A program made the translations under genes and the position numbers. The notes under the pieces were generated by a model. The model ran no database searches and had not been told where the DNA came from. It saw only the letters and a program-made list of their open reading frames with translations. 64,000 nucleotides of DNA, taken from NCBI RefSeq assembly GCF_014195535.1, contig NZ_JACIBY010000007.1, positions 186,001-250,000 on the forward strand. Direction: 5' to 3'. Numbering within the stretch: the first letter of the stretch is position 1; each line of letters starts with the position of its first letter. This document shows, in pieces, positions 4,976 to 30,029 of the stretch. The DNA is from Runella defluvii (GTDB taxonomy: Bacteria; Bacteroidota; Bacteroidia; Cytophagales; Spirosomataceae).

Positions 4976-6394
4976 ATGTCAGTATTAAATGTATTATCTC
5001 CCTCACCTGATTTTCGTATCAGGCGCCGAAAAAATCATTTAAGGTTATTAAGTGATTTTATAGTCATAGCTATAGTGTATGTATTTAGTACACTTTGTTG
5101 CCAAAGAGAGTTGAACCAAATAAATACGCTCATTATCATTGGTTTGTTACTTGTTTGGTACTTTTCAAGTAAATTTATTAAAATCTATGACGATTTTAGG
5201 TTTTCATTATTTACGGATGAATTACTAAGCTTACTGCCTAATTTAATTGTTCAACTGGTTGTACTGTCAATTTCATTGTTTTTGCTCGATGATCATTTTC
5301 ACGCAAGAACATTTACGGTAATATATGCGACAACATTAATGGTTACTGTGGGTTTTAAAATGTATTTTACCCGTAGTTTATTATTGTATTGGTACGCACG
5401 AGGTATAAACCAAAAAAAAGTAATAGTTGTAGGGGATTTTTCTTCAGTTCATGAATTTATTGAATTGATTCAAAAGAAGCCCCAATCTGGCTATAAAATT
5501 GCAGGAGCACGCGCCCATGATTTTGTAAAAAATGAAAAATCAACTTTACAAGAAACGTTGAATTTTTTAAAAAATACGCCAATTAATGAAGTAGATGAAC
5601 TGGTTATTGCAATCCAAAAATTTAGCGAAACGTACGTAGCAGGTTTGATTGAATGGGCCGATAAGCAAGGGGTACCTGTTAAGTTTACGCCAGGCTTTTT
5701 TCAGTTAAATGCCTCCCGCTATTCGTTTGAATTATTTGGACAATATCCGTTGGTAACCGTACGGAGTACGCTGTTAGATTTGAATTACTGGCAAGGGGTA
5801 AAACGCGCTTTTGATGCTGTTTTTAGTATATGTTTTTTGTTGTTGATTGCGTCGTGGTTGTTTCCGATACTAGCTTTGGCGATAAAAATTAACTCCAAAG
5901 GGCCCGTGTTTTTTATCCAAGGCCGTTGGGGGCAAAAAGGAAAAATTATCAAAGTGTGGAAGTTCAGGACGATGTATCACGGCGCATCGACCGTAAAAAA
6001 GGAGGGAGGATTTAGCCAAACTACCTCCAATGATCCACGGGTGACGCGCGTCGGTCAGTTTTTACGAAAGACCAATTTGGACGAATTGCCGCAGTTTATC
6101 AATGTCTTTTTGGGGAGTATGTCAGTGGTTGGGCCTCGTCCACATGCCACAAAGCACAGTGAAGAAACCCTACCACTGATTGATAATTACATGATTCGGC
6201 ACCGCGTTAAGCCAGGGATTACGGGTTGGGCGCAGGTCAATGGCTACCGAGGCGAAACCCACGAGATTGGCCTGATGCGCAAACGAGTGGAATACGACAT
6301 TTGGTACATCGAAAACTGGAGCCTTTTGTTAGATATACAGGTAATTTTTAAAACAGTATATAATATGATGAAAGGCGAACCCCAAGCATATTAG
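4976..6394 (+). CDS. Undecaprenyl-phosphate sugar-1-phosphate transferase (WcaJ/PglC superfamily)
   Basis: A 472-residue polyprenyl glycosylphosphotransferase that would start an exopolysaccharide repeat unit by moving a sugar-1-phosphate onto undecaprenyl phosphate at the inner membrane. The first ~150 residues hold four to five membrane segments, residues ~150-260 form a nucleotide/CoA-binding-like domain, and the C-terminal ~200 residues are the bacterial sugar transferase domain. Motifs visible there: KVWKFRTMYHG, the essential-type DELPQ in LRKTNLDELPQFINV, MSVVGPRPHATKH, and KPGITGWAQVNGYRGET. The 5' half is much poorer in G+C than the 3' half, and 99 nt of the 3' half recur at 10122-10220. 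Sugar specificity cannot be read from the sequence. Confidence 0.9.
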   Translation: MSVLNVLSPSPDFRIRRRKNHLRLLSDFIVIAIVYVFSTLCCQRELNQINTLIIIGLLLVWYFSSKFIKIYDDFRFSLFTDELLSLLPNLIVQLVVLSISLFLLDDHFHARTFTVIYATTLMVTVGFKMYFTRSLLLYWYARGINQKKVIVVGDFSSVHEFIELIQKKPQSGYKIAGARAHDFVKNEKSTLQETLNFLKNTPINEVDELVIAIQKFSETYVAGLIEWADKQGVPVKFTPGFFQLNASRYSFELFGQYPLVTVRSTLLDLNYWQGVKRAFDAVFSICFLLLIASWLFPILALAIKINSKGPVFFIQGRWGQKGKIIKVWKFRTMYHGASTVKKEGGFSQTTSNDPRVTRVGQFLRKTNLDELPQFINVFLGSMSVVGPRPHATKHSEETLPLIDNYMIRHRVKPGITGWAQVNGYRGETHEIGLMRKRVEYDIWYIENWSLLLDIQVIFKTVYNMMKGEPQAY

Positions 6395-6420
6395 ATATTA
6401 GGTTATCCACATTGATTACT

Positions 6421-6459
6421 AACCTCTCAAATGTTGTAAGACTTCTGAGAGGTTTTTTA
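6421..6459 (+). terminator. Intrinsic terminator after the sugar transferase gene
   Basis: A 9-bp perfect stem (AACCTCTCA at 6421-6429 with TGAGAGGTT at 6446-6454) is followed by a T-run, 27 nt after the sugar transferase stop. It separates the export/initiation genes from the ArnT-like gene at 6541, which must then have its own promoter or depend on read-through. Confidence 0.7.
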
Positions 6460-6540
6460 TTTTCTGATGCGTTAATTTTTGCAATTTTGCTGACGATTGT
6501 TGGGAGTAATGTAGAGACTGGGTCATCAAAATAAAAACGG

Positions 6541-8181
6541 ATGAGTATTGCAAAAAGTAATAAATGGCACTTATTGGCTGTAATTTTGGCAATACCTGCC
6601 CTTTTTTCACACTTGGGCTATATTCCGTTGGACATGTCAACCGACGAAGCACGGCGGGCGCTGGTGGCTTTGGAAATGGATTTGACGGGAAATTATTTGA
6701 CACCTACCTTAAACGGAGAACTTTACTTTAACAAACCCCCGCTCTATAACTGGCTCATATTGGCCTCGTTTCGGTTATGGGGCGATTACTCATCGTGGAG
6801 CCTTCGATTTCCCATGGCGGTGTCGGTGATTGGGTTTTCGTTCACCATTTTTTACTGGCTACGTCGGTACGTACCTTATCAGATTGCGGCCATGGTGGCG
6901 TTGTTGCAATTGGTCAACGGACGCGTACTTTTTTACGAAACGCTCTATGGTCTCATTGATATTACCTATTCATGGGCGACGTTTACGGCCTTTATGGTGA
7001 TTTATGAGTATGACAAACGCAAAAAATACGGCTTACTGTTTTTGTACTCTTATCTCATTTGCGCTTTGGGGTTTATGATGAAAGGGCTGCCCTCTTTGGT
7101 TTTTCAGGGGATGACGCTGGTGACTTGGCTGGGGTACCAGCGAAAATGGCGGGTGTTGTGGCACCCTGCTCATTTTTTGGGCATAGCGGTTTTTCTCGGG
7201 ATTGTGGGGACGTATTATGCCCTAAGCATTGCGGCGTTTGGTTTCCCACTCCAAAAAGCAATGTATGTCCTGTGGGACGAAAGTGTAAAACGGACAGGTG
7301 TGGCCTTTGGCATAACTGCTACGGTGCTGCACATTCTCACCTTTCCATTTGAATACATTTTTCACTTTTTACCTTTTACGTTATTTATTCTCTTATTTTA
7401 TCCTTCAACTCCCCAAAAATCGTGGTCAACGGTGCTGGCTGCGTTGCGAAGATACACCAGTCCGAAAGACTCTTTTTTACGGTTTTGTGCCATTACTTTT
7501 GTGGCCAATGTGCTCGTTTACTGGGTCTCGCCGCAGGTGTATGCGCGCTACACGTTGATGCTTCAGCCGCTCTTTTTTACGCTAGTGGTGGTGGCTTATT
7601 ACCAACAGGAAGGGCACTGGCAGCGGCGTTGGATTGAAGTTTTTATGGGGGGCGTCATGGGAATCACGGTTTTTGCGGTTTGGATTGCGTTTGGCATTGA
7701 AGCGACCCGAAAACTTCCCTACGTGTGGGGAGCATGCTTGGCAACGAGCGGGGTGGTGGGAGTCATGTGCTGGTGGTATTTTCACCAAAAAGAAGTTCGT
7801 TTGGATATTTTTGTGGTGTTTCTGCTGGTGGCTCGTATTTCCTTTAATTTTTTGTTTGTTCCGCCCCGCGAGGCCAAGCGGCAGCGGTATTTGGAAGACA
7901 ATGTGAAAGCGGCACTGATGACCATGGATGCGGCGGGGAATGCCCTGCCTTTGAAGAGTTATAAAACGACCATTGGTGATGATGGAGCGACGGATGTTAA
8001 TAGTTTTCACATCGAAGCTACGCGGCGGAAAGTCCTTCCCATAAGTTTTAAAAAAGAGAAAGGAGTGTATTACTTGGCTGATTCTAGTAACTTGGCGGGC
8101 GAAAAGTACAAAGAAATCGCCAGGCTGACGCTTTATCCAGAGCGACCTGCCAAAATAGTCCGCTTCGATCAAGCACCTTAA
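6541..8181 (+). CDS. ArnT/PMT-like integral-membrane glycosyltransferase (GT39/GT83 type)
   Basis: A 546-residue polytopic membrane protein. The first periplasmic loop carries the acidic catalytic-type motif of this clan (DMSTDEARRALVALEM, with Asp-Glu at the D-E pair) followed by NKPPLYNW, which matches ArnT/dolichyl-phosphate-mannose protein mannosyltransferases. About ten hydrophobic segments follow, then a soluble C-terminal tail. Family members move a sugar from a polyprenyl-phosphate carrier to lipid A, protein or glycan on the periplasmic face. The next gene, a polyprenyl-phosphate sugar synthase type GT2, overlaps it by one base (TAATG) and would supply that donor. The acceptor and sugar are unknown. 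Confidence 0.85.
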   Translation: MSIAKSNKWHLLAVILAIPALFSHLGYIPLDMSTDEARRALVALEMDLTGNYLTPTLNGELYFNKPPLYNWLILASFRLWGDYSSWSLRFPMAVSVIGFSFTIFYWLRRYVPYQIAAMVALLQLVNGRVLFYETLYGLIDITYSWATFTAFMVIYEYDKRKKYGLLFLYSYLICALGFMMKGLPSLVFQGMTLVTWLGYQRKWRVLWHPAHFLGIAVFLGIVGTYYALSIAAFGFPLQKAMYVLWDESVKRTGVAFGITATVLHILTFPFEYIFHFLPFTLFILLFYPSTPQKSWSTVLAALRRYTSPKDSFLRFCAITFVANVLVYWVSPQVYARYTLMLQPLFFTLVVVAYYQQEGHWQRRWIEVFMGGVMGITVFAVWIAFGIEATRKLPYVWGACLATSGVVGVMCWWYFHQKEVRLDIFVVFLLVARISFNFLFVPPREAKRQRYLEDNVKAALMTMDAAGNALPLKSYKTTIGDDGATDVNSFHIEATRRKVLPISFKKEKGVYYLADSSNLAGEKYKEIARLTLYPERPAKIVRFDQAP

Positions 8182-9155
8182 TGATGACGCATTCGCTTTC
8201 CCACCCAGCTCCACTTGTATCGGTTGTGGTTTGTGTATTTAATGAGGCCGAAAACATTCGCCCGTTGATGATAGAAATAGATGAAGCCCTGCGTGGATGG
8301 TCTTACGAAATCATTTATGTCAACGATGGCTCAACGGATAATACCCTTTGGGAGCTGAAGAATATTGCCCATAAAAGTTTAAAAGTAATTGATTTTCAGC
8401 GTAACTATGGCCAAAGTCAAGCCTTGGCGGCGGGCATAGAGGCGGCATCAGGTGAGTATATCGCTACGTTGGACGGTGATTTGCAAAACGACCCTGCGGA
8501 CATCCCTGCCTTACTCACCGTAGCCCAGCAAGGGGATTATGACATGATTGCCACGGTACGGTTGAAACGAAAAGATAGTTTTGCCACCCGAAAACTGCCC
8601 AGTATCATCGCCAATTGGCTCATCCGACATCTATTGGGAGTACACTGCAAAGATTACGGAAGTACGTTGCGGGTATTTAGGGCATCTTTGGCGAAAAGAC
8701 TGCCCTTGTACGGAGAGTTGCACCGATTTATTCCAGTACTTGCTGCCTTAGAAGGGGCAAAGATGACTGAAGTGGTGGTGAAACATCGTCCACGGATTTC
8801 GGGGACGTCCAAATACAATTTAGGGCGGACAACCAAAGTAATCAGTGATTTGGTTTGGGTATATTTTATGAAAAAATACTTGTTAAAGCCCATTCATTTT
8901 TTTGGAAAAATAGCGATTTGGATGTTTTTAGGGGCATTTTTTGTGTGTTTGTACATGGGTTGCACGCTAGTGGCTCGTCCAGAAGCTAGTTTAGCATCTT
9001 GGCCAATGGCTGCGCTGATTCTTTCCGTTTCAGGGGTGCAATTGGTAGGGATGGGCATCGTAGCTGAGCTAGTAATGCGGTCTCTTTTTGAATCGCAGGG
9101 CAAAAAAACGTACGTCATCCGTCAGATTTATACTTCTCATAACCAACGACAGTAA
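8181..9155 (+). CDS. GT2 glycosyltransferase, polyprenyl-phosphate glycosyltransferase (DPM1/ArnC-like)
   Basis: A 324-residue GT-A enzyme. The nucleotide-binding start is VSVVVCVFNEAENI; NDGSTDNT and the metal-binding ATLDGDLQNDP (DxD) follow, then the GLxxARKxxx-type region ending in a KYNLGRT motif. Two C-terminal membrane helices (around residues 245-265 and 275-300) anchor it. This layout is that of polyprenyl-phosphate mannose/glucose/aminoarabinose synthases. It overlaps the ArnT-like gene by one base, so the pair most likely makes and uses a polyprenyl-phosphate sugar. The following epimerase gene starts 2 nt after its stop. Confidence 0.88.
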   Translation: MMTHSLSHPAPLVSVVVCVFNEAENIRPLMIEIDEALRGWSYEIIYVNDGSTDNTLWELKNIAHKSLKVIDFQRNYGQSQALAAGIEAASGEYIATLDGDLQNDPADIPALLTVAQQGDYDMIATVRLKRKDSFATRKLPSIIANWLIRHLLGVHCKDYGSTLRVFRASLAKRLPLYGELHRFIPVLAALEGAKMTEVVVKHRPRISGTSKYNLGRTTKVISDLVWVYFMKKYLLKPIHFFGKIAIWMFLGAFFVCLYMGCTLVARPEASLASWPMAALILSVSGVQLVGMGIVAELVMRSLFESQGKKTYVIRQIYTSHNQRQ

Positions 9156-9157
9156 GC

Positions 9158-10174
9158 ATGGTCATTTTGATAACGGGTGGTGCTGGTTTTATTGGCTCTC
9201 ACCTTTCGGAACAATTACTTCAGCAAGGACATCAAGTTGTATGTATTGATAACCTTGACGAGTATATCTATTGTTCGGCGTTGAAGCGAGAGAACCTTAG
9301 TACGTTGGCGCAGTACGACAACTTTATGTTTATTAAGGGAGATATTCGTGATAAAGCGGCTTTACAACAGCTTTTGGTGGATTATCAATGTGAACTGGTG
9401 ATTCACTTGGCCGCGTACGCAGGCGTGAGACCGTCGGTAATGGAGCCCGAAAAGTTTTTTGAAATCAACGTAAATGGAACGTTGGCGGTGTTAGAAGCGA
9501 TGAGAAAAGCGGGTGTCCGTCGAATGATTATGGCATCGTCGTCGTCGGTTTATGGCAATAGTACTGCGCGACAATTTAAAGAAACAGACGCCGCCGACCA
9601 GCCGATTTCCCCTTATGCCGCGTCGAAGCGAGCGGCAGAATTGGTGGCATATTCGTACCATTCGCTTCACCAATTTGACGTAACCTGCTTGCGATTATTT
9701 ACGGTCTTTGGCCCAAGGCAACGACCCGAAATGGCCATCCGAAAATTTATTGAACGTATCCAAGCGGAACAACCTATTGACGTCTATGGCGATGGGCAAT
9801 CCATCCGAAATTATACGTACATCTCAGACGTGGTCAATGCCTTTTTAAAGGCGATGGACAAACCCACAGGGTTTGATGTGTATAACATCGCTGGGCCAAC
9901 TACCACAAGCCTCCTGGAAACCATTGAAGTGATTGAAAAACAGGTTGGGAAACAAAGCCAACGCACCTACAAACCAGAACAAGCAGGTGACATGCGGCAG
10001 ACGGCTGCGGATATTTCAAAAGCGCAACAGGAGCTGGGCTATTTTCCGCAAGTTGAATTTGAAGAGGGAATCAGCCGAGTGATTGACTGGATGATGCGAG
10101 AGTCTTCAAAGCAACTGCCGATTGGGACGTATGTCAGTGGTCGGGCTTCGTCCACGTGCCACAAAGCCCAGTAA
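9158..10174 (+). CDS. NAD-dependent sugar-nucleotide epimerase/dehydratase with an abnormal C-terminus
   Basis: A 338-residue extended SDR protein. It has the Rossmann glycine motif (TGGAGFIGSHL), the active-site Ser in SSSSVYGN, and the YxxxK pair in SPYAASKRAAE. The overall pattern fits UDP-glucuronate 4-epimerase/UDP-glucose epimerase enzymes that interconvert sugar nucleotides in the cytoplasm. The reading frame ends inside a displaced copy of sugar transferase DNA (10122-10220), so the last ~16 residues (from GTYVSGRASS onward) come from that copy read out of frame rather than from the epimerase lineage. The core fold looks complete, and activity is probably retained. Substrate not determined. 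Confidence 0.88.
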   Translation: MVILITGGAGFIGSHLSEQLLQQGHQVVCIDNLDEYIYCSALKRENLSTLAQYDNFMFIKGDIRDKAALQQLLVDYQCELVIHLAAYAGVRPSVMEPEKFFEINVNGTLAVLEAMRKAGVRRMIMASSSSVYGNSTARQFKETDAADQPISPYAASKRAAELVAYSYHSLHQFDVTCLRLFTVFGPRQRPEMAIRKFIERIQAEQPIDVYGDGQSIRNYTYISDVVNAFLKAMDKPTGFDVYNIAGPTTTSLLETIEVIEKQVGKQSQRTYKPEQAGDMRQTAADISKAQQELGYFPQVEFEEGISRVIDWMMRESSKQLPIGTYVSGRASSTCHKAQ

Positions 10175-10240: not shown

Positions 10241-11506
10241 CTACACTTTCTTCTTAATGACTTCGAAGGCGGCGTTGTATTGACTTTGTACTTTTGCCAT
10301 TGATTGTTTTACGCTCTTTTTAGCTGCCCCATAATCAGCCACTGTTTGTAATAGCCTGTCGGTGATTTGTTGTCCCGTCGTCTCTTCAATCTCAAACGTC
10401 CAATCTTTTAACCCCAAGTCATAATACATCTGTCCTTTGATGGTGTCTTGAGGCTGACGCAAATAAAAGGCGGGAGTACCGTTGGTCAGTGCAATGATGG
10501 GAGAATGACACTCATAGCTCAACACCGCGTGGGCGTGGGAATACAACGACGCCGCTTCATCGGGAAGCCAATAGCCGTGTTTAACCACCAAAGCTTTCAC
10601 ATCTTCAGGGAGCGGGTTGACCAATAATTCATCAATAATATCTACTTGATAGGTCATTTCGGGGCAAACTACGATTTTGTTACCCGTCTTTTGTACCCAC
10701 GCTACCATGGCTTCACGGACTTTGGCGTGGTCGATTTCTTTCCATTTGTCGTTGAGTTCGTTGACTTCCTTGATACGTTCTTCACTCCAGCCGCTGGGCC
10801 TGATTTTGTAATAAGGGGTTACCCGAAGGCGCGGAATCACACAAATGAATTTGCGATGTTCTAACTTATTGTCCTGAATAAATTGATTGGCCTTTTGGTC
10901 GTCATGAATCTCCAACACAAACGTAGCATCAGGCGCAAAAGCGATGTGCGGTCCTTGGACGCCCGCTTCTTTTAGCTTTTCAATTGAAGCAGTTTCCCGC
11001 GTAAAAATAAACGAGGCGTGTTGTAGCAGGTCTTTTAACGCAGGAGAAACAGTTTGTGTCGTGACCCCAAAAATCCCAAAAGGCTTCTGGGTTTGCTTGT
11101 GCCAAGCTTGTAAGTAATCGGTAGCAACGACCGAAGGCCCCGAACCATGCAGGAAAAAATCGGCTTCCTGAAATGCCCGTTTCACTTCTTCTGTTTGGGG
11201 TACCAACTCCTTATCTACCGCCCCGTGAATAATGGAGACGTCGGGGTAATAGTGGTTGAGCATGGTTTCTACCATCTCACTTTTGCTTTTTTTCCAGAGA
11301 ATAATCTTGGCTTTAGGGAGGCGTTTTTTCAATAGGCCAATCAACCCAGGGGTATGGGCAATGTCTCCGATGTTGACATCCTGCCAACCTGAAGTGATGA
11401 GTAACACAGGGTTGTTTTTGTGCGTGGCTTGTGCCAAAAAAGGGAACATGGCAGCGGCTGAAACCAAGCTGCTTTGTTGTATGAATTGACGACGATTGAG
11501 AGGCAT
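10241..11506 (-). CDS. Exported polysaccharide pyruvyl transferase-family protein (Tat signal), paralogue 1
   Basis: A 421-residue protein with a twin-arginine signal (NRRQFIQQSS, then a hydrophobic stretch ending FLAQA). The mature protein starts with the family's N-terminal signature (SGWQDVNIGDIAHTPG) and has the C-terminal SYECHSPIIALTNGTP block, equivalent to the RLHA...G.P motif of polysaccharide pyruvyl transferases (PF04230). Classical members are cytoplasmic and use PEP to ketalate sugars; an exported copy cannot easily reach PEP, so the activity may differ. It is the last of three tandem paralogues downstream of SusC/SusD, 11 nt after its upstream neighbour. Confidence 0.8.
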   Translation of the reverse strand: MPLNRRQFIQQSSLVSAAAMFPFLAQATHKNNPVLLITSGWQDVNIGDIAHTPGLIGLLKKRLPKAKIILWKKSKSEMVETMLNHYYPDVSIIHGAVDKELVPQTEEVKRAFQEADFFLHGSGPSVVATDYLQAWHKQTQKPFGIFGVTTQTVSPALKDLLQHASFIFTRETASIEKLKEAGVQGPHIAFAPDATFVLEIHDDQKANQFIQDNKLEHRKFICVIPRLRVTPYYKIRPSGWSEERIKEVNELNDKWKEIDHAKVREAMVAWVQKTGNKIVVCPEMTYQVDIIDELLVNPLPEDVKALVVKHGYWLPDEAASLYSHAHAVLSYECHSPIIALTNGTPAFYLRQPQDTIKGQMYYDLGLKDWTFEIEETTGQQITDRLLQTVADYGAAKKSVKQSMAKVQSQYNAAFEVIKKKV

Positions 11507-11517
11507 GGGATTGGATT

Positions 11518-12843
11518 TTATTTCGCCAGTTTTTTTACGACTGACATGGTTTCTTTTTGTCGGTTGCGGACTACATCCATGGCTTTTTGGGCTTTGGCTT
11601 TGGCCGTTTTGTAGTCTTTGTAAATTGTTAAAACTGCTCCTGTAATATCGGATGCAGGCGCTTGGTCTATTTCAAATAGCCACTCAGGTACGCCAATGTC
11701 ACGAAACATCCACCCTTTGCGACCGTGTTTGAGCGGACGGGCGTGAACCACAGGCACTCCCAACGCCAAGCCCATGATGAGCGAATGGGGCTCCATGCCA
11801 AACATCGTGTGTGCTCGGGCATACACCGACATGGCTTCGTCGGCACTCCAAAAGGTTTCGCGACATACGACTTTGGCCTTGATGCTATCGTCCAATTGGT
11901 CGTAGAGCATCGTTTTGGCGTATTTAGTTTCTTTCAAAGCCTCGGGAGCAATCAAGACTTTCATGCCCGTAGTCGTGACCCACTGATGGATTAAGTCTTT
12001 GACTTTGCCCAGTCGCAGCGCATCTTGTTGCTGCTGCTCGGGCGAGGGGGCGGGGTTCATCATATCGCCTTTCCCTGTGGCATTCAAATGCGGCGTATTG
12101 GTTCGTACTACTACCACCAAAAACTTCCCTTCTTCCAATCCAGCCTCACGTAGATAGGCAAGCCCCCTGGCTTCGTCCCGCACGTCTATTCCAAAACATC
12201 CATCGGGGCCAAATTCTATGATGGGCGTTTTGAACTGGTTCTCTTTCAAGAACTTGACCGACTCGGTATCACGACAATAGATAAAAGACGCACGGCTCAG
12301 TACATCCCTAAAAAGTGATAATGCAGGCGGCGCAAACTTGTCGAACGACTGCCCGTAAAGCCCAAAAGGAATGTTGTTTTCGAGGCAATAATAAAAGGGA
12401 GCAAGGTTGGACATGACTCCGGTCCATTCATAATTGAACAAACCATAGTTCATCGACATTCCTGAGTTATGAATATAGACGTCGGCTTGCTCGAATGCCG
12501 TTTTTAGTGCTCCTTGCAAACCTTCATCTTGGTTGAAAAAAGCCCCGTGAACGATTTTTACTTTCGGGAAATTTTTGACAATCAATGCTTCTGTAACGGG
12601 ACGAGGTTGGGCGTGCCATAAAATAATTTGCGCTTCGGGAATGTATCTTTCCAACAAACGTAATGTGCCGGGCGTGTGACCAATGTCTCCAATGTTGTTG
12701 TCGTTCCACGACGAGCGGAGTAATATGGTGGGTGCCTTGGCCAATGGTATTCCGGGTACGCTCAGTTGTTCCCGTTGAGGCACTTGAAACGTAGTGGCTG
12801 CAAGGGTAGAAAGTTTAAGAAAGTCTCGACGGGAAGTAGGCAT
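11518..12843 (-). CDS. Exported polysaccharide pyruvyl transferase-family protein (Tat signal), paralogue 2
   Basis: Start chosen at 12843 (MPTSRRDFLKLSTLAATTF), which gives a textbook Tat signal and a 13-nt gap to the upstream gene; an ATG 30 nt further upstream (12873) would overlap that gene by 17 nt and add ten residues. The mature protein has LRSSWNDNNIGDIGHTPG at its start and GMEPHSLIMGLALGVP near the C-terminus, the two family landmarks also seen in the flanking paralogues. It carries an extra low-complexity insert (PSPEQQQQ) absent from the others. Same operon and inferred periplasmic location; substrate unknown. Confidence 0.8.
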   Translation of the reverse strand: MPTSRRDFLKLSTLAATTFQVPQREQLSVPGIPLAKAPTILLRSSWNDNNIGDIGHTPGTLRLLERYIPEAQIILWHAQPRPVTEALIVKNFPKVKIVHGAFFNQDEGLQGALKTAFEQADVYIHNSGMSMNYGLFNYEWTGVMSNLAPFYYCLENNIPFGLYGQSFDKFAPPALSLFRDVLSRASFIYCRDTESVKFLKENQFKTPIIEFGPDGCFGIDVRDEARGLAYLREAGLEEGKFLVVVVRTNTPHLNATGKGDMMNPAPSPEQQQQDALRLGKVKDLIHQWVTTTGMKVLIAPEALKETKYAKTMLYDQLDDSIKAKVVCRETFWSADEAMSVYARAHTMFGMEPHSLIMGLALGVPVVHARPLKHGRKGWMFRDIGVPEWLFEIDQAPASDITGAVLTIYKDYKTAKAKAQKAMDVVRNRQKETMSVVKKLAK

Positions 12844-12856
12844 GGCGTTTTTCGGT

Positions 12857-14131
12857 TCAGGTTGTAAGGACATTCTTTTTCAAGACATTCATGGTTTGTT
12901 CTTGTCGCTGCTTCACAAAGGCTTGGGCTTTCTTTACCTTCATTTTAGCGGCTTTGGGGTTTTGAGCCATTGCGAGTACAGTGGGCACAATTTTGGCGAC
13001 GTCGCTTGGGGTGTCCATGTCAAAGAGCCACTCGCCCAGCCCAATGTCTCGCCACATGTAGCCTTTGCTGGTTTGTTCGTCAAATCGACAAACAATGGCA
13101 GGGATTCCCTGCGCAATGCACATAATGGGCGAGTGCATTTCTAAACCAAACAAGCCTGCCGAACGAATGTACGTACTCACGGCTTCGTCGGTAAGCCAGT
13201 ATTTATCTCGCCACACCACTCTCTTTTTGACATCCTCAGGAAGTGGGTCGTAGAGCATTTCTTTTCCAATCCGCATTTGAGTCGCATTTTCGGGTACGAG
13301 CAAGACTTTGAGCGGTGTTTGGCGTACCACGGCGATGATTGCCTCCCGAATGGGGGCGTTGTCCTGCTCTTTCATTTTTTCGTTGTGCGCGTGCTTGGCT
13401 TCGTTGATGGTTTGTTTTTTGGAAGGCAACTCCCACCAAGGCGAAAACCGTACTTGGGGAATTGCGCACAAAAACTTCCCCGTTTCGAGGCCGTGTTCCC
13501 GTAAAAAAGCATCAGCTGCTTGGTCGTCTCGGACATCCACCGCAAAGGCACCATCGGGACAAAATTCCATGATGGGGCAGTTGACTCCCTGTTTTTTGGC
13601 AAAATCCATGGATACCGAATCCCTGAAATAAGCAAAACGGGCTTGGGTCAAGATGTCTAAGTCGAGCGGAGTTACTTTTTGCCGATCTTCAGGAAAGCCA
13701 TACACACCTGGAAACGTAATGCCATAAATGCCGTAAGGTTTGCCCGTTGTTTTTCGCCAACGCTCCACGTCTTGCTTTGCAACCAGCGAAGGCCCTGAGC
13801 CGTGCAGCAAAAAAACACATTCGCTGAATGCTTGTTGAATTTCTTCGGGAGTTTGGATAATGCGCAGTTTGGGAAAACGCTTTCGTAGCATTTCTTCCAC
13901 GCCATTTTTGACATTAGAAGGCCATAGGCGTACTTCTACTTCGGGTAAATAGTGTTCTAAAAGCGTCAGCACGCCTGGTGTATGTGCAATGTCTCCAATG
14001 TTTTCGGTTTGCCACGACGAACGCAAAATAATTGATTTAGGTGCTGCCGCTGTAGCTTCTCCCAACGCCACGTGCAACGAAGCCGCCAACAGGGAGGTTT
14101 GTTTTAAAAAAGTACGTCTATTGAGTGTCAT
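12857..14131 (-). CDS. Exported polysaccharide pyruvyl transferase-family protein (Tat signal), paralogue 3
   Basis: A 424-residue protein, first of the three paralogues in transcription order. It has a Tat signal (NRRTFLKQTSLLAASL), the N-terminal LRSSWQTENIGDIAHTPG signature and the C-terminal GLEMHSPIMCIAQGIP block. Paralogues 1 and 3 are closer to each other (both have LHGSGPSxVA), while paralogue 2 has IHNSGMSMN at that place. Between SusD and this gene lies a 136-nt gap with a dyad repeat (14158-14253). Export is inferred from the signal; the biochemical role is unknown, but the gene order points to handling of the glycan imported by the SusCD pair. Confidence 0.8.
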   Translation of the reverse strand: MTLNRRTFLKQTSLLAASLHVALGEATAAAPKSIILRSSWQTENIGDIAHTPGVLTLLEHYLPEVEVRLWPSNVKNGVEEMLRKRFPKLRIIQTPEEIQQAFSECVFLLHGSGPSLVAKQDVERWRKTTGKPYGIYGITFPGVYGFPEDRQKVTPLDLDILTQARFAYFRDSVSMDFAKKQGVNCPIMEFCPDGAFAVDVRDDQAADAFLREHGLETGKFLCAIPQVRFSPWWELPSKKQTINEAKHAHNEKMKEQDNAPIREAIIAVVRQTPLKVLLVPENATQMRIGKEMLYDPLPEDVKKRVVWRDKYWLTDEAVSTYIRSAGLFGLEMHSPIMCIAQGIPAIVCRFDEQTSKGYMWRDIGLGEWLFDMDTPSDVAKIVPTVLAMAQNPKAAKMKVKKAQAFVKQRQEQTMNVLKKNVLTT

Positions 14132-14157
14132 ATTTATCTTGAGAATGGAAGTTTATC

Positions 14158-14253
14158 CCCGCAGAAACTCGCAGAAATTTAAAACCGCTGATTTTCGCTG
14201 AATTTCCTGCATCTGCGTCATTCTGTGGCCTTAAATCTGCGTTGGTCTGCGGG
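14158..14253. repeat. Imperfect dyad repeat with multiple GCAGA/TCTGC units
   Basis: The ends are complementary (CCCGCAGA at 14158-14165 with TCTGCGGG at 14246-14253), and the interior repeats GCAGA, CGCTGATTTT and its complement several times. It fills most of the gap between susD and the first pyruvyl-transferase-like gene. It looks like an interspersed intergenic element. There is no T-run, so a simple terminator is unlikely; it could act as an mRNA stability or attenuation element. Confidence 0.55.
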
Positions 14254-14267
14254 TAAAACTGAATGGG

Positions 14268-15965
14268 CTAATAACCAGGGTTTTGCTCAAATTTAGCTCC
14301 AGTATTGGCATCAATTACTTTTTGGGGAATAGGCCAATACTTGTTAAAATCTTGGATTGTTTTTCCCGATGATGGACCATTCGCCACCGATGGTTCGGAA
14401 TTGTATTTTCTCACCCTGTCCACCAAACGTCCCATGCGAATCAAGGTGCGCAATCTGGGCTCTTCCACAATCAACTCCCGCGTTCTTTCGTCCAAAATAA
14501 AGTCTTCGGTTACTTTTGTTGCACTGATTAAGGTAGCTTTTGCCCTTGCTCGCACTACGTTGATGTCTTTGGCGGCATTTTCCAAATCCCCTTTTCTAAA
14601 ATAAGCCTCCGCTCTCAGCAAATAGGTTTCAGCGACCCTCATGCGGCTAAAATCTTTGGAGGTATTGCCCGATAATATATCGTTATTGATGGAAGGCCCT
14701 TCGATTTTTCGATAGTAAGGGTAGTATTGGCGCAATGTATCAATGGCAATGGTTGTGAGCGTACCGTCGTTTCGAGCCAAAAATAGATTTCCATTGGCTG
14801 CTTTTTTGACAATAATCGGCTTACCAAAATACTCTTTATCCGCAGGGTTGTTATAGTAAAAAGTGCGTCGGATGTTATGAACGGAATTTCTCATGTCTTT
14901 GGGGTCTAATGCCCAGACATCATATTTGGCGTAATTGGTAGGACAATTAACCCCAATTCCCCTTCCGATGCTATCAGCTACCACATTCAAGACTCGATTT
15001 GGAGTTTGTAAGCGGTCATATTCGGGTCCCCAGTAACGAATGCTATTATTGGCCGAAGAAGTCGAAAAGCTCCCGCCTACGTTGGTACTTTCAAACTGCC
15101 AAGCCCACATCACCTCTTTGTTGCCCGCCGCGTAGTTGACTTGCCCATTGGCAAAAAGATCAGAAAAAACATCGCCAGCGCGCGAAGCTGCCGCGCCAAA
15201 TCGCGCCGTCATGAGTTGATAATCACCCGCTTCTTTGTTAATTACTTTGCTGGCCGCCCCGATGGACTTATCGTAGAAGGAAGCATCTTTAGATTCCATA
15301 CCCAGTGAGATATAAATTTCGCTCAACAGGTGAAACGCCGCCGCGCGGGGGATGCGGCCGTCTTTGACTTGCAACGGTAGTAAAGTGATGGCTTCTTCCA
15401 AATCTTTGGCCGCAAAATTGAGTACTTCAAGCCGAGAGTTTCTTACAAAATCAAATTTAGGTTCGGTGATTGTTTGCTTTACAATTGGCACACCCCCATA
15501 AATATTCGCCAAAAAATTGTACGTGTAGGCCCGAAAGAAAAGCGCCTGACCTTTGATGTTGTTAAGGTCTTCGGGCTTAATGCTGAGATTGGGGTTATTG
15601 AGGCCGTCCAAAACGGTATTGGCCCGTAAAATCATGGTTTTATACGCCCAATCCCAATACACAATGGTCGCATCTAAGTTGGGGTTAAGCAGACTGTAAT
15701 CTTTATTCCCGCGCGAGTCGTTCCGTCCCCATTGGGTTTGGTCGGTTCCTACGGTCATGTACTCAAAATTGTTGGAAGCAATGATGTGTTCCTGACGTGC
15801 TCCTTCGTACAAACCTACCACGGCGGCATCGAACCCAGCCGTGTTGGTCAGTAAGTTTTCGGGACTAAACCGATCCAGAGGCACTTCCTTTAAAAAATCA
15901 TCGTTGCAGGCGGTTGTAATGCCCAAAAGTGATAGAAGTAAGAATACTTTATATGTTGATTTCAT
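14268..15965 (-). CDS. SusD/RagB-family outer-membrane glycan-binding lipoprotein (PUL 1)
   Basis: A 565-residue protein with a lipoprotein signal (LLSLLGITTAC, Cys 20) followed by the usual NDDFLKEVPLDRFSPE start of SusD proteins. It has TPR-like helices at GQALFFRAYTYNFLANIYGGVP and the C-terminal family pattern LLRAEAYFRKGDLENAAKDI, LDERTRELIVEE and WPIPQ. SusD forms the lid over the SusC barrel and binds oligosaccharide on the cell surface. The gene follows susC by 12 nt, as in other Sus loci. Confidence 0.93.
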   Translation of the reverse strand: MKSTYKVFLLLSLLGITTACNDDFLKEVPLDRFSPENLLTNTAGFDAAVVGLYEGARQEHIIASNNFEYMTVGTDQTQWGRNDSRGNKDYSLLNPNLDATIVYWDWAYKTMILRANTVLDGLNNPNLSIKPEDLNNIKGQALFFRAYTYNFLANIYGGVPIVKQTITEPKFDFVRNSRLEVLNFAAKDLEEAITLLPLQVKDGRIPRAAAFHLLSEIYISLGMESKDASFYDKSIGAASKVINKEAGDYQLMTARFGAAASRAGDVFSDLFANGQVNYAAGNKEVMWAWQFESTNVGGSFSTSSANNSIRYWGPEYDRLQTPNRVLNVVADSIGRGIGVNCPTNYAKYDVWALDPKDMRNSVHNIRRTFYYNNPADKEYFGKPIIVKKAANGNLFLARNDGTLTTIAIDTLRQYYPYYRKIEGPSINNDILSGNTSKDFSRMRVAETYLLRAEAYFRKGDLENAAKDINVVRARAKATLISATKVTEDFILDERTRELIVEEPRLRTLIRMGRLVDRVRKYNSEPSVANGPSSGKTIQDFNKYWPIPQKVIDANTGAKFEQNPGY

Positions 15966-15977
15966 TGTTCCTGAATT

Positions 15978-18900
15978 TTAGAATGACACGTTAATACCGC
16001 CAATAAATGTTTTAAGCAATGGGCCGTTTGTGCCTGGGTCACGGCCGCCGCCCCCAAACTCGGGATCCCATCCGTTCCATTTGGTCCACGTAAATAAGTT
16101 TTTGCCACTTACATACACTTGAAGATTGGCTATTTTCAGCTTCTTTGTCAGTGCGTCCGAAAAATTATAAGACAACGATACATCTTGCAGCCTTGCAAAG
16201 CTTCGGCTTTCGTAAAAACCATACCCGAGTGGATTACGATAGTTGATTCGGGGGTGAGTATTGATAGGGTTAGAGGGCGTCCAATAAGGCGTATTGAGGA
16301 AATTAGCTTGGTCAAAGAAATTAGAGCCAGGGTTGATGAGCGAGTTAGAACTGTAGCCGCCCTCTCTGATAGTGAGCGTAGAAGACAAACTAAACCTCTT
16401 GAAGTTGACGATATTGGTAATTCCTACATTAAAATTAGGTTGGTTGCTGTGCAATACGGCGCGGTCTAAGGGCGTAATTTTGCCATCGGGGACACCATTA
16501 GGGCCACTGATGTCCTTAAATTTTATGTCTCCTGCCTTGGAGCCCGGTATTAGCGAAAAATCATCTCCTTGCTGGAAAACTCCGTCAAATACGTAGTCGA
16601 AATTACTGCCCAACGGCTGCCCGATAAACCATCCACTGGCAATGTCATCGTCTTCTATGCCATCGTTGTTGATGTCTCTGCCCGTGAGCTGAACGATTTT
16701 GTTTCGGTTGAGTGAAAAAGCGAGGTTGGTATTCCATCCCCAGTCTCCTCTTTCAATATTTTTGGTTTTGAGGTCTAATTCAAAGCCTTTGTTTTTGGTT
16801 TTACCAATATTTCTCAAGAAAACCTCAAAACCGTTGGTATTCGGAATAGTTTGGTTGAGGAGTAGGTCAAACGTGTTGGAAACGTAAAAATTGAGGGAGG
16901 CCGAAATTCGGCTGGAAAATGCCTGAACGTCGGTGCCGATGTTGAAACTTTCGGTCGTTTCCCAACCCAAATTAGGATTGGCAAGCGTGGTAGGGACTAA
17001 ACCGATTGATACGGGTTGCCCGTCTCCAAAAACATAATTTCGCTGACCAACTTGGCTCAAAGACGAGTACTCGCTCACGCCTCGGTTTCCGTTACGTCCC
17101 CACGATGCCCGCAGTTTTAAGAAGTCAATTTTTTTGACGTCTTTCATAAAACCTTCATCACTTACGTTCCAACTGAAAGCAACCGAGGGAAAAGTTCCGA
17201 ATTTACGACCCTCTCCAAAGGCCGAAAATCCGTCTCTGCGTACACTCAAAGTAAAGAAGTATTTACTTTTCAACGAATACCCCAAGCGCGCCATGGAAGA
17301 GATTTGTCGGTTTTGAGTTGCGCCTACGTCAATGCTGTAGCCTTCGCCAATTTCCAATGAGTTGTAGCCCAAGGCATCGTTGAAAATATTTTGGCTTGAC
17401 AAAAATGAAAACTGATTTGACAATTGATAAATGCCGTAAAGAACGGTTAAATCAAGACTGTGCTCTTGGGCAAATCTCCGCTGGTATTTAAGAATATTTT
17501 CTAAGGTAAAATTTTGAGTTTCTCCGTGTCTTTTAGAGCCAGAACCCAGTCGGTTGGTAGGGGCATAGGTAGGACTGTATGCGAATGTTTTGGAGTCGGT
17601 TCGGGTATAGCCTCCGTTGAGTTTGTAGGTCAACCCTTCTAACAAGGTTACATCGGCGTAGGCATTGGCAAATAGGATGTTAGTGATTGATTTGTTGGTG
17701 TTTAAGAGCGTTCCTAATAAGGGGTTGGCTACCAAGCCCCAGTTTTGTGGAAGAGGATTTGGCGAAACCCCGTCTTCTAAATATAAACTAGCAAAAGGGC
17801 TCAAATAAGAAGTTGGAACAAGGCTGGCCCTTACCCCTGAATTGTCTCTGGACGAATACCCAGAATTGATGCCCAATTTGAGCCAATCGGTAGCCTGTAC
17901 GCCCAAGTTTAATCGGCTCGACAAACGGTTGAAATTATCGCCTCTGACGGGCGATTTAGAGTCGGTATAAGCTCCTGAAAAAAAGTAACTTAATCTATCC
18001 ATTTTCCCTGAAACATTGAGCTCATAATTCGACATCGGAGCACTTTGTTTGATTTCCTGAAAAGGATTGATTGTTTTTCCCGCAGCAATGTTTGCTTGTT
18101 CAATCACCGAAAACGGTACACTTCCTCCTTCGGCTTCTTCGGCATCTTTGCGCGCAGCTAAGTATTGCTCGGGGGTGCGGTAATTAGGCAAAAAAGCATA
18201 ATCTGACGCCCCCAAATAGGTAGTGAATGTAAACTTAGGCTTGCCTGATTTTCCTTTTTTTGTGGTAATCTCAATGACTCCGTTGGTTGCCAAAGAGCCA
18301 TAAATGGCCGTCGAACTGGCATCTTTCAGAATGTCGATGGTCTCAATATCGTTGGGGTTGATGTCGGCCAAATTTCCTCCCGCGTAGATAATTCCGTCCA
18401 AGACAATCAGGGGAGAACTATTGGCTGAAATGGAGTTGATTCCTCGGATTCGGATCGTTCCTGCTTGTCCAGGGCGACCATTGTCAATGACTTGCACGCC
18501 CGCCGTTGTTCCTCTCAGGATTTGCGAAGCGTTGGTGTTGGGTTGCAATCGGGTGGCTTCCACGTCCACACTGGCGATGGCTCCCGTCAGGTCTTTCTTT
18601 TTCTGGGTTCCGTATCCCACCACCACCACTTCTTCGAGGGCTTTGGTGTCGGGTTTGAGGGATACGTTGAGGCTGGTTTGGTTACCAATGGCATATTCTT
18701 GAGAAATATATCCTACAAATGAAAAGACCAAGACTTCACTGTTGTTGGCAAGAACGATTCGGTATTTTCCTGAAGCATCGGTAGTGGTACCGCGCACGGT
18801 TCCTTTGATGATTACACTGACGCCTGGTAGGCCCATTCCGTTTTCGTCAGTAACTGTACCCGTGATGGCTTGGTCTAATTGTAGGTCGAACATAGTGGGC

Positions 18901-19262
18901 TGATTCTTAGGCTCTAACCCTTCGGGTGCGTTTCCCAAAACCCGACGCGTCAACACAATTTTGTTGGATCGGAGCACTTGGAAGTTGATTTGACGCGGGG
19001 TTAAAATTTGCTGCAACACCGACTCTAAGGTTTCGTCCTTGATGTCGAGGCTCAATTTTTCGTTGGTAGTGAGGACGCCTTTTTGGTAAGAAAATACGAC
19101 ATTGCTTTTTTGCTCAATGGTTTTGAGTACCGTTTTAAGTTCGGTATTTTTCAAATGGAGCGTAATTTTTTCTTGCAGTCGTTCTTGGCCAAAAGTGTTC
19201 TCCGCAAAACTGAGGGTAGTCAGCAGACAAACAAACAACAAGGGGGTGAGGGTGATTTTCAT
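15978..19262 (-). CDS. SusC/RagA-family TonB-dependent transporter with STN domain (PUL 1)
   Basis: Start taken at 19262 (MKITLTPLLFVCLLTTLSFA), a proper signal peptide; the frame extends 13 codons further to 19301. Order of domains: signal, STN/secretin-like signalling domain (~20-100), CarboxypepD_reg-like domain (ITGTVTDENGMGLPGVSV), plug with VVVGYGTQKKKDLTGAIAS, then a ~900-residue barrel ending in an aromatic residue. The STN domain implies signalling to the upstream FecR anti-sigma factor when substrate binds. It imports oligosaccharides through the outer membrane with its SusD partner. Confidence 0.93.
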   Translation of the reverse strand: MKITLTPLLFVCLLTTLSFAENTFGQERLQEKITLHLKNTELKTVLKTIEQKSNVVFSYQKGVLTTNEKLSLDIKDETLESVLQQILTPRQINFQVLRSNKIVLTRRVLGNAPEGLEPKNQPTMFDLQLDQAITGTVTDENGMGLPGVSVIIKGTVRGTTTDASGKYRIVLANNSEVLVFSFVGYISQEYAIGNQTSLNVSLKPDTKALEEVVVVGYGTQKKKDLTGAIASVDVEATRLQPNTNASQILRGTTAGVQVIDNGRPGQAGTIRIRGINSISANSSPLIVLDGIIYAGGNLADINPNDIETIDILKDASSTAIYGSLATNGVIEITTKKGKSGKPKFTFTTYLGASDYAFLPNYRTPEQYLAARKDAEEAEGGSVPFSVIEQANIAAGKTINPFQEIKQSAPMSNYELNVSGKMDRLSYFFSGAYTDSKSPVRGDNFNRLSSRLNLGVQATDWLKLGINSGYSSRDNSGVRASLVPTSYLSPFASLYLEDGVSPNPLPQNWGLVANPLLGTLLNTNKSITNILFANAYADVTLLEGLTYKLNGGYTRTDSKTFAYSPTYAPTNRLGSGSKRHGETQNFTLENILKYQRRFAQEHSLDLTVLYGIYQLSNQFSFLSSQNIFNDALGYNSLEIGEGYSIDVGATQNRQISSMARLGYSLKSKYFFTLSVRRDGFSAFGEGRKFGTFPSVAFSWNVSDEGFMKDVKKIDFLKLRASWGRNGNRGVSEYSSLSQVGQRNYVFGDGQPVSIGLVPTTLANPNLGWETTESFNIGTDVQAFSSRISASLNFYVSNTFDLLLNQTIPNTNGFEVFLRNIGKTKNKGFELDLKTKNIERGDWGWNTNLAFSLNRNKIVQLTGRDINNDGIEDDDIASGWFIGQPLGSNFDYVFDGVFQQGDDFSLIPGSKAGDIKFKDISGPNGVPDGKITPLDRAVLHSNQPNFNVGITNIVNFKRFSLSSTLTIREGGYSSNSLINPGSNFFDQANFLNTPYWTPSNPINTHPRINYRNPLGYGFYESRSFARLQDVSLSYNFSDALTKKLKIANLQVYVSGKNLFTWTKWNGWDPEFGGGGRDPGTNGPLLKTFIGGINVSF

Positions 19263-19312
19263 AAGATAGAAAATCTCTTTTCTGGTAAAGAAATTTGACA
19301 TAATTTTGATTG

Positions 19313-19409
19313 TTTTTGTTTTGGAAAAGACAAAGCACGAACGCGCGGTGCTTCCTACACAACCGCAAGTTCAGTAAGGGAAAGATGTGACCGCATCTTT
19401 CCTCTTTTT
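19313..19409 (+). ncRNA. Candidate antisense sRNA in the fecR-susC gap (PUL 1)
   Basis: Both ends are inferred from sequence. A + strand promoter-like box TAATTTTG (19301-19308) with TTTT 19 nt upstream could start a transcript near 19313, and a strong + strand terminator ends at 19409. The RNA, about 95 nt, would be antisense to the leader of the susC message. DonS-type cis-antisense RNAs that repress PULs in Bacteroides occupy this place. There is no direct evidence of expression. Confidence 0.4.
19379..19409 (+). terminator. Terminator on the strand opposite to PUL 1
   Basis: The stem GGAAAGATG (19379-19387) pairs with CATCTTTCC (19394-19402) around a 6-nt loop, and on the + strand it is followed by TC and seven T. 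On the - strand the hairpin is preceded by A-residues and followed by no T-run, so it is not a terminator for fecR. All genes here are on the - strand, so it must serve an antisense transcript. An equivalent structure lies in the same gap of PUL 2 (33566). Confidence 0.7.
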
Positions 19410-19454
19410 TTGATTATTGGGACTATTTTTTTTGGGTTTACATACTGGTTGGGT

Positions 19455-20549
19455 TTAATGACATCCCTTTGACTCGATAATAATCTGAGCGTCAATCTCT
19501 TTGTAAGCGGCGCCGATGGTTTGGCAAATCACTTCAAGCTGGTCGTAGAGCGAATCATCGCTGATGGTGGTGGTGAGGATACAGTCGGAAAGCGTGTCTT
19601 CATTGTAGCGGATTTCGACGCCAAATAATTTCTCCAACTCTTTGAATACGTCGGCTACTTTCACTTCGTCAAACTGCCTTTTAACCAGCGTTTTTTGCGC
19701 CACAATGGGGATGGGTACTTCTACCAAGCTGCGATTTAGGAGCTCGTTGGCTCGGTTAAAAACCGCCTGTTGGTTGGGTAATAAAAGCAATCCTTTGGTT
19801 TCGGGGTCGGCGATGTCGATGCGGTTTTGTTTAAAAACCGATACCCGCCCCGTTTGGACTTTCACCGTTACTTGTTTGCTGTTTTCTAAGGCTGAGATGC
19901 GGAAACTCGTTCCCAGTACTCTGGTAATCAATTCGTTGGAATAAACATAAAATGGCTTGGCTGGATTTTTGGCTACTTCAAAGAAGGCTTCCCCACTCAG
20001 CACAACTTCGCGTTTTTTGGCTTCAAAATGTACTGGAAAACTCAAACGGCTCCCTTTTTCCAAGTACACTAACGTTCCATCTTCAAGGTGTATTTTCTGG
20101 GTGGTGGGGCCGTTGTTGACTACTTCCTGACGCGGGCTTTTTGCTTCAACCACTGCAATCAAATCTTGGTAATTGACTTGGTGAGCGGGTTGTTTCATGG
20201 TCCAAAGCCAAGCGGCACCTGCCACCAAGACCAAGCTTGCTGCCCATTTGAAAGCCCTTGTTTGCCAAAATCGCGGTAAGAAACTAACCTGTTTTTCTAC
20301 GATTTCTTCCTCAGAAATGAGGGCGGTAATATTGTTCCAAATGGATTTTTGGTCAAGCGAAAGGGAAGTGGCTTCTTCCGCTTTTTGTACGGCCAAAATC
20401 AATTGTTTTGCTTGGGCAACTTCGTTTGCTTTGGCAGGATGTTGTTGCAGAAATTGTTGCCAAAAGACGTCTTCTTCCTGAAACAATACCCATCGGACAA
20501 ACGAGTCGTCGTGTATAAAATCGTTGCGTTTAAATTGGTCATAGTTCAT
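19455..20549 (-). CDS. FecR-family anti-sigma factor (PUL 1)
   Basis: A 364-residue protein. The N-terminal cytoplasmic part (~1-90) should hold the cognate ECF sigma factor, a membrane helix follows (FKWAASLVLVAGAAWLW, about 95-112), then the periplasmic FecR domain (VYLEKGSRLSFPVHFEAK, GEAFFEVAKNPAKPFYVYS) and a C-terminal STN-like DUF4974 domain (VADVFKELEKLFGVEIRY). It would receive the signal from the SusC STN domain and release or activate the sigma factor encoded 21 nt upstream. Confidence 0.93.
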   Translation of the reverse strand: MNYDQFKRNDFIHDDSFVRWVLFQEEDVFWQQFLQQHPAKANEVAQAKQLILAVQKAEEATSLSLDQKSIWNNITALISEEEIVEKQVSFLPRFWQTRAFKWAASLVLVAGAAWLWTMKQPAHQVNYQDLIAVVEAKSPRQEVVNNGPTTQKIHLEDGTLVYLEKGSRLSFPVHFEAKKREVVLSGEAFFEVAKNPAKPFYVYSNELITRVLGTSFRISALENSKQVTVKVQTGRVSVFKQNRIDIADPETKGLLLLPNQQAVFNRANELLNRSLVEVPIPIVAQKTLVKRQFDEVKVADVFKELEKLFGVEIRYNEDTLSDCILTTTISDDSLYDQLEVICQTIGAAYKEIDAQIIIESKGCH

Positions 20550-20570
20550 GATGTCGAAAACAAAAAATGG

Positions 20571-21182: not shown

Positions 21183-21548
21183 GTTTTTGCAAACGCTTGG
21201 TTGTCTGCTTGGGATAGTTACATTTATTCTCAAACGAGTGATAAACGCCTCACAAGTACAGGTACAAGGTTCGCTAAAAAATACCCTTCGTTGAGAAATA
21301 TTTTTTTGGGGGGGAGGAGAGAAGGTGGCAGCGGGCGAGGAGGAAGGGTTTTATTAGTTTTCTAAGCCACGCCTTTTGAGGTTAACTTATCGGATTAAAA
21401 AGCTCTATACCTTCGGCTTTGTTGGGTAAGTTGATGGTTATCTGGGGGATAATTACTGTTGGTTTTCTCCGTTAAATCTTTGCAAATTGAATATACCAAT
21501 CCAAGAAACATGTCGAAATCAACGTGTTTGTAAAAATATTGTTCATTT
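21183..21548. other. 366-nt intergenic region with a G-rich purine tract
   Basis: It separates the PUL 1 sigma gene start from the stop of the PIN gene. The notable element is a purine-rich stretch at 21308-21348 with a run of seven G followed by further G-tracts. No convincing coding frame, terminator or Bacteroidota TAnnTTTG box was found, although the sigma gene promoter should lie within about 150 nt of 21182. Confidence 0.5.
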
Positions 21549-24363: not shown

Positions 24364-24376
24364 GAAAAATGACAAA

Positions 24377-25582: not shown

Positions 25583-25651
25583 TATTTTAGAGGGACTTTA
25601 TTGTTAGTTTTTGTAGGATACGGTGCTAAGTTAGTAAATTTTGGTTAGTCT

Positions 25652-25684: not shown

Positions 25685-25693
25685 GAAGGTGAG

Positions 25694-28180: not shown

Positions 28181-28248
28181 GGTAAAATGAAGTTTAATCA
28201 AAAAATGAATAACGTTTCTACTTAACTAATTAAGCAGAACTAATCGAG

Positions 28249-30010: not shown

Positions 30011-30029
30011 TGAAAGTCAAAGGATTACA

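Follow-up and report, generated by a model that had tools for sequence, protein, structure and literature searches.

The described enzymes closest to the proteins considered here are polysaccharide pyruvyl transferases of family PF04230: the ketalpyruvyltransferase CsaB of Paenibacillus alvei (TIGR03609), Pvg1 of S. pombe (5AX7) and WcaK of the E. coli colanic acid system. Docking and mutants indicate R148, R306, H308 and K328 of CsaB as contacts of phosphoenolpyruvate (PEP), with R217, R337, H339 and K361 as the Pvg1 equivalents, and the abstract of that study terms R148, H308 and K328 critical to PEP binding (PMC10435577). We compare these enzymes with the products of three adjacent genes, PPT1, PPT2 and PPT3, in a 64,000-nucleotide stretch of Runella defluvii DNA (contig NZ_JACIBY010000007.1, positions 186,001 to 250,000; hereafter the window, in whose own numbering all coordinates are given). 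By sequence comparison the three fall in a branch of the pyruvyl-transferase family that stands apart, with Glu at the place of one PEP-contacting Arg, and they are probably catabolic enzymes that do not use PEP. The superfamily, the fold and loci with a SusC/SusD pair (SusCD) are already known.

With CsaB the PPT proteins share the PF04230 domain, the NxGD start, the places of R148 and H308, and a Lys at or near that of K328; they differ in having Glu for R306 and a signal peptide, in a mostly catabolic context, and in scoring far under the CsaB equivalog cut-off (24.8, 29.7 and 22.5 bits for the three proteins against TIGR03609, vs 213.1). With Pvg1 they share the family and a GT-B-type (glycosyltransferase B) fold, and Pvg1 too works in a secretory compartment, the Golgi, where transporters deliver its PEP (PMC4872226); Pvg1, however, keeps R337 (in DRLH) and is biosynthetic. 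The first-pass annotation of the window took PF04230 to work in the cytoplasm with PEP, which for Pvg1 is right about the PEP and wrong about the compartment. WcaK gave the longest of three profile alignments to the branch (361 columns), with ...TRLHSAI... lying on ...LEMHSPI..., but has Arg for the Glu, no twin-arginine (RR) signal at its start and a place in an exopolysaccharide (EPS) operon; PPT1-3 reach 17.0 bits or lower against the WcaK equivalogs, whose cut-offs are 399 and 727.1. S. meliloti ExoV was dropped as a further comparison, there being no convincing match in the stretch of pSymB searched (best E 0.0021 in a small search).

PPT1 (12857-14131, 424 aa), PPT2 (11518-12873, 451 aa) and PPT3 (10241-11506, 421 aa) lie on the minus strand and show pairwise identities of 36, 38 and 30%. 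All three exceed the curated PF04230 cut-off of 25.3 bits, PPT1 modestly (36.1) and PPT2 and PPT3 with 77.8 and 63.3 bits. We call them and their relatives within the polysaccharide pyruvyl transferase superfamily the E-branch. In the surveyed loci a profile of this branch scores full-length window-type relatives at about 520-625 bits and canonical members at 37 bits or less. A tree of 40 rows places PPT1, PPT2 and PPT3 in three groups with support of 99/98 or higher, the nearest neighbours of the window proteins being Runella proteins up to 96% identical. The PPT1 group holds members from Bacteroidota, Verrucomicrobiota and Planctomycetota, and among the PPT2 group are proteins bearing the names Pirellulales, Tundrisphaera and Kiritimatiellaeota; the order of the PPT2 and PPT3 groups is unsure because the long branches to both meet, as the tree program warned. 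PPT1 had 5649 relatives at E <= 0.001 among 7999 scored candidates. The matches listed bear the names polysaccharide pyruvyl transferase, WcaK-like or hypothetical, and what follows argues against reading the annotated name 'pyruvyl transferase' or 'WcaK-like' as the function of the E-branch. One branch gene, whose identity to the query (about 60%) resembles that of the Verrucomicrobiota and Planctomycetota genes, sits on a contig of a metagenome-assembled genome titled Klebsiella pneumoniae (L064); the title is probably a binning label rather than the organism.

The replacement of Arg by Glu was seen in every alignment that covers the motif. When the branch was aligned as a profile with six canonical members (probability 98.5), R170 of PPT1 fell on R148 of CsaB, E331 on R306 and H333 on H308. 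Twenty of 24 further alignments of subset against subset cover the motif, at probabilities from 5 to 98.6, and all 20 put Glu on Arg and His on His. Compared residue by residue with CsaB and Pvg1, the branch therefore has the equivalents of the Arg at R148 and the His at H308 and lacks the Arg at R306/R337. Among 19 canonical members with a readable motif, judged by eye, the Glu331 place holds Arg in 14, Ser in four, Lys in one and Glu in none; 5AX7 and WbbZ, found by the canonical profile, both read DRLH there. The PPT1 codons concerned, all on the minus strand, are those for Glu331 (13139-13141; place of R306/R337), His333 (13133-13135; place of H308/H339), the branch-invariant Glu281 (13289-13291) and Lys356 (13064-13066; at, or two residues from, the place of K328/K361, depending on the alignment). 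By alignment, the Glu331 equivalents are E361 in PPT2 (11791-11793) and E332 in PPT3 (10511-10513), both likewise on the minus strand.

Within the branch these residues hardly vary: Arg170 is found in 515/515 rows, His333 and Lys356 each in 512/512, and Glu331 in 511/512, plus one Asp. Other positions are equally fixed (E281 and W312, 514/514 each; W40, 511/511; H50, 512/512), and the conservation holds across the three paralogue clades. Since the rows were collected by similarity to the window proteins, the counts describe such relatives and are silent on more distant forms. Two canonical rows aligned at E281 read Ser and Phe, and the W312 place differs in them as well. The retained Arg and His and the invariant Lys hint at a ligand of carboxylate or pyruvyl-like kind, and the new Glu331 together with E281 suggests acid/base catalysis; the whole set, the fixed Trp and His included, is consistent with an enzyme that is active but has given up PEP. 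The first-pass annotation had supposed that these copies may do something new, and with Glu at the place of a PEP-contacting Arg a function other than the known one of the family is indeed probable.

The model of PPT1 (predicted local distance difference test, pLDDT, 95.9) has a predicted GT-B fold, and the solved folds nearest to it are UDP-GlcNAc 2-epimerases and GT4 enzymes, not one family. Pvg1 (5AX7) was not among the best 50 fold matches listed and was found only via the canonical profile; a sequence search of the PDB gave nothing convincing (one match for PPT1 at E 0.68, best E 0.65 for the branch profile).

Each of the three proteins begins with an export-type signal, an RR motif followed by a hydrophobic stretch (NRRTFLKQTS, SRRDFLKLST and NRRQFIQQSS in PPT1, PPT2 and PPT3), which takes up about residues 1-31 in PPT1 and follows an internal Met at residue 11 in PPT2. 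After the signal they read NIGDIxHTPG, and ExHS...GxP in the C-terminal part. This architecture, and its position directly after SusD, had been reported in the first-pass annotation, with which reading frames, profiles and coordinates agree. An RR motif with a hydrophobic stretch is present in 388/441 evaluable relatives vs 43/779 background open reading frames (ORFs), the background being other ORFs called in the surveyed loci that reach 150 aa, not all of which can be genuine. The evaluable set is what is left of 517 aligned distinct relatives after removal of 52 without a recognisable NIGD and 24 with fewer than 28 residues before it. The remaining 53 have RR without the hydrophobic stretch (8), RK or KR (24) or no signal in the searched form (21). 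With one TatC match in the genome, the RR motif, the hydrophobic region and the machinery expected of twin-arginine translocation (Tat) substrates are all present. Eight relatives carry a lipobox-like Cys after the RR signal; in addition, one E-branch member (L213) with an RR signal and then a Cys resembles a Tat-exported lipoprotein.

Export does not run strictly with the Glu. Among 21 E-branch ORFs from 20 Verrucomicrobiota regions, eight (in L220, L221, L227, L228, L229 twice, L232 and L233) have only 21-41 open residues before the NIGD region and no RR; the frame in L230, by contrast, is open for 145 residues including an RR, leaving its class undecided. All 21 retain E281, W312, R170, H333 and K356, with Glu331 in 20 and Asp in one. 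A strict rule that Glu goes with export was therefore rejected, and export does not explain the reversal from Arg to Glu, because members without a signal retain Glu or Asp; these members show that Glu331 characterises the branch as such and does not simply follow from export. One genome of the Verrucomicrobiota survey (G773) has four branch matches on a contig of 3.75 Mb.

In the family of the window, Spirosomataceae, the branch was found in 73/200 genomes and 20/36 genera; among Verrucomicrobiota, the phylum of Chthoniobacter, it was found in 16/145 genomes. A phylum-wide sample gave 1/296, the genome of the window itself, which is a lower bound since five candidates were scored per genome. 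For gene context we used 73 family loci: 69 of the 73 genomes with the branch supplied 73 regions, to which the window was added and from which L188 was removed. SusD lies upstream on the same strand immediately before the branch genes in 37, within four genes in 50 and within six in 52. These are lower bounds, as three loci (L133, L146, L162) have SusC upstream without a recognised SusD, and two of the 73 start within four genes of a contig end. With 45 SusD matches in the 8.0-Mb genome and an estimated 6,600 genes or so, the share of genes expected by chance right behind a SusD is about 0.7%; the 73 loci come from related genomes and are not independent. In a separate set, SusC and SusD are both upstream in 22/25 loci titled as Bacteroidota, the exceptions being one with recognised SusC only (L019), one with the pair downstream (L026) and a 3-kb contig (L061). 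None of the 52 loci in that set not titled as Bacteroidota lies in a SusC or SusD cluster. The branch is thus common in polysaccharide utilization loci (PULs) but not bound to them. The uptake locus proposed beforehand is borne out, and the arrangement recurs; that these proteins could be the defining part of a SusCD system is not supported, given the 21/73 loci in which no SusD was recognised among the six genes upstream, the 0/52 loci elsewhere and the signal-less Verrucomicrobiota members.

In the window the operon runs in one direction (minus strand) in the order ECF (extracytoplasmic function) sigma factor (20571-21233), FecR anti-sigma factor (19455-20549), SusC/RagA TonB-dependent transporter (15978-19301; TIGR04056, 784 bits), SusD-family lipoprotein (14268-15965; PF07980, PF14322), PPT1, PPT2, PPT3, both regulators being assigned by profile match. 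It thus has what marks a SusCD locus, the SusC and SusD pair with a regulator. By coordinates there is an overlap of 17 bp between PPT1 and PPT2, a gap of 11 bp between PPT2 and PPT3, and one of 136 bp between SusD and PPT1. No further PF04230 match was found in the genome (8.0 Mb, 50 contigs) at E <= 0.001.

From these data we offer a full explanation, tentatively: the E-branch would be a separate catabolic branch, exported by Tat, that does not use PEP and acts on acidic oligosaccharides imported by SusCD, most economically by hydrolysis of a ketal. PPT1-3 would be exported folded to the periplasm, where the acidic oligosaccharides imported by the SusCD pair encoded in their own operon would be their substrates. 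Arg170, His333 and the invariant Lys356 would form a retained anion pocket, and Glu331, with Glu281, would supply acid and base. To our knowledge no pool of PEP or of nucleotide diphosphate (NDP) sugars is to be expected in the bacterial periplasm, which speaks for such a reading. The chemistry would be the reverse of that known in the family, a pyruvate ketal being hydrolysed to let lyases and glycosidases proceed. Of the chemistries that would join a pyruvyl-like ligand to acid/base catalysis, ketal hydrolysis is the simplest, though other reactions on glycans are no less likely, and the pyruvate ketal as substrate, the weakest step, is doubtful when taken alone. A broader proposal, that the E-branch is a new class of GT-B-fold pyruvate-ketal hydrolases (depyruvylases), with the PEP-binding Arg swapped for a catalytic Glu, mostly exported, with which Bacteroidota, Verrucomicrobiota and Planctomycetota remove pyruvate from acidic polysaccharides of microbes or algae, is speculative and rather unlikely as it stands.

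Several observations weigh against this explanation. The need for the Arg at R306/R337 rests on docking, because R306 is absent among the twelve CsaB mutants named in the accessible part of PMC10435577 and because Pvg1 R337A, like R217A, could not be produced (PMC4872226). Five of the 19 readable canonical members themselves have Ser (four) or Lys (one) in place of that Arg. The signal-less Verrucomicrobiota members keep Glu331, or Asp in one, so that Glu need not mean a lack of PEP. Lys356 falls on the canonical Lys in 2/10 alignments reaching it, those that use the most divergent members (probability 98.6), and misses it by two residues in the remaining 8/10, as it does in the six-member alignment (98.5) and in the set of three profile alignments that includes WcaK. 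For 21/73 family loci the six genes upstream include no recognised SusD. No glycan-degrading enzyme was recognised in the window operon (10241-21233). In four loci (L154, L156, L159, L186) a branch member stands beside an EPS sugar-transferase (Bac_transf) gene, and in L119 the neighbour in convergent orientation is a gene of that kind.

Xanthan lyases release pyruvylated mannose without removing the ketal, as described in the consulted passages of PMC10881899, which name no ketal hydrolase. PvGal-ase (ORF1119) resembles the role proposed for the PPT proteins in acting on pyruvylated sugars, but it is a GH1 enzyme and releases whole pyruvylated galactose with the ketal still on; enzymes degrading pyruvylated oligosaccharides are described there as not well known (PMC6090015, accessible text). 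The consulted passages of two reviews name no ketal-removing enzyme, and among the papers listed by a literature search, with bioRxiv and most subscription papers outside its scope, none dealt with an exported or catabolic PF04230 branch. Glu331, found in 0/19 readable canonical members and standing beside a strictly kept Arg and His, offers a direct mutational test, and trying a single purified protein on a small set of pyruvylated glycans could answer the substrate question.

At least as likely as the explanation above is a reading in which these are GT-B-fold catabolic enzymes acting on acidic glycans without any involvement of pyruvate, for instance by glycoside hydrolysis, transglycosylation, phosphorolysis or epimerisation; the pocket of Arg, His and Lys would then bind a uronate carboxylate or a sulfate. 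Neighbouring lyases (PL8, heparinase II/III-like, alginate lyase-like and PF14099), the GH88-like match near its cut-off and sulfatases point to uronate-rich or sulfated glycans; the nearest solved folds, from more than one family, the invariant carboxylates E281 and E331, and a PEP-site Lys that is in register in some alignments only agree with it too. A pyruvyl-like ligand, on the other hand, would explain simply why the Arg and His of the PEP site are strictly kept and why an invariant Lys lies where the PEP-site Lys is expected or close by, and no periplasmic GT-B glycosidase is known to us as a precedent.

It is quite improbable that the proteins serve in the periplasm as binding proteins without catalysis, retaining a pocket for the ligand and passing oligosaccharides along. 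Their location directly after SusD and the several paralogues per locus (one copy in 36 of the 73 family loci, two in 24, three in 10 and four in 3) would suit such a role. Near-complete invariance of the polar pocket residues and two carboxylates, at 30-40% identity and across three phyla, is typical of catalysis, and forms without a signal exist.

We regard as very unlikely that they are exported pyruvyl transferases decorating the cell's own EPS in the periplasm, with a donor not specified. The family name, the activity of Pvg1 in a compartment supplied with PEP and the member beside a Bac_transf gene in four loci favour it, as does a gene run at 4976-10174 that includes sugar transferase, GT2 and epimerase genes, is convergent with PPT3 and ends 66 bp from the operon. 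Against this stand the change from Arg to Glu at a PEP contact in 511/512 rows, SusCD upstream in most family loci and a window operon that runs against the EPS-type genes; moreover, we know of no PEP exporter in such bacteria. That the RR signal fails to work in Tat export, leaving the PPT proteins to act in the cytoplasm, is highly improbable in view of 388/441 vs 43/779 and the presence of TatC, even with at least eight Verrucomicrobiota relatives that have no room for a signal and the 53/441 without one in the searched form.

The neighbours of the branch in Bacteroidota include a PL8 lyase, heparinase II/III-like and alginate lyase-like proteins, a SASA esterase, MFS transporters and a GH88-like match just under its cut-off, and further alpha-L-fucosidase, GH10, PF14099 lyase, GH28, GntP permease and beta-helix proteins. 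In Verrucomicrobiota and Planctomycetota they include GH38, GH5, RraA-like, Gfo/Idh/MocA, sulfatase, DUF1501 and PSD1 proteins. Around eight Verrucomicrobiota loci whose members look signal-less by eye, the undecided L230 among them, GH1, GH2, GH3, GH10, GH39, SASA and sulfatase genes were seen, as were SSF and MFS_2 transporters and LacI and GntR regulators, each family in 1-3 of 65 proteins. The twelve other Verrucomicrobiota loci are mixed: 60 of 96 listed neighbours were scanned and no family occurred in more than two. Members of xanthan-type degradation sets (PL8, GH88, GH38, GH5) thus recur near E-branch genes, but in different loci, with GH88 just under its cut-off and the whole set in no locus examined; xanthan as a single target glycan was set aside and serves as a lead only.

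Some loci have features of their own. The PL8 lyase of L024 (5070-7316) carries an RR signal; the same cluster occurs in L009, L010 and L022, and in L009, L010 and L024 its gene has SusD on one side and the PPT genes on the other. In L023 (5715-8879), and also in L020, a run with SusCD and PPT holds a protein, of 1054 aa in L023, that combines an RR signal with an interrupted FAD_oxidored domain. In L154, L156, L159 and L186 a PPT3-type gene stands beside a LytTR regulator and the EPS sugar transferase, with a PF14099 lyase-like protein nearby and no SusCD in view.

The glycan-degradation gene nearest the window operon is a heparinase II/III-like one at 22327-24363 on the opposite strand. It belongs to a group at 22327-28201, with a NamZ-type exo-muramidase and an 835-aa protein without clear family, that separates the PPT operon from a second sigma/FecR/SusCD set (28298-35191). 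Farther along the window, a GDPD phosphodiesterase domain and a GH16 domain are fused in one ORF (35348-36856), a PD-(D/E)XK transposase-family ORF (43629-44465) stands between two genes for 2-oxoacid:ferredoxin oxidoreductase subunits, and a vitamin K-dependent gamma-carboxylase-like (HTTM) protein (48159-49508) is encoded beside an imelysin and a TonB receptor.

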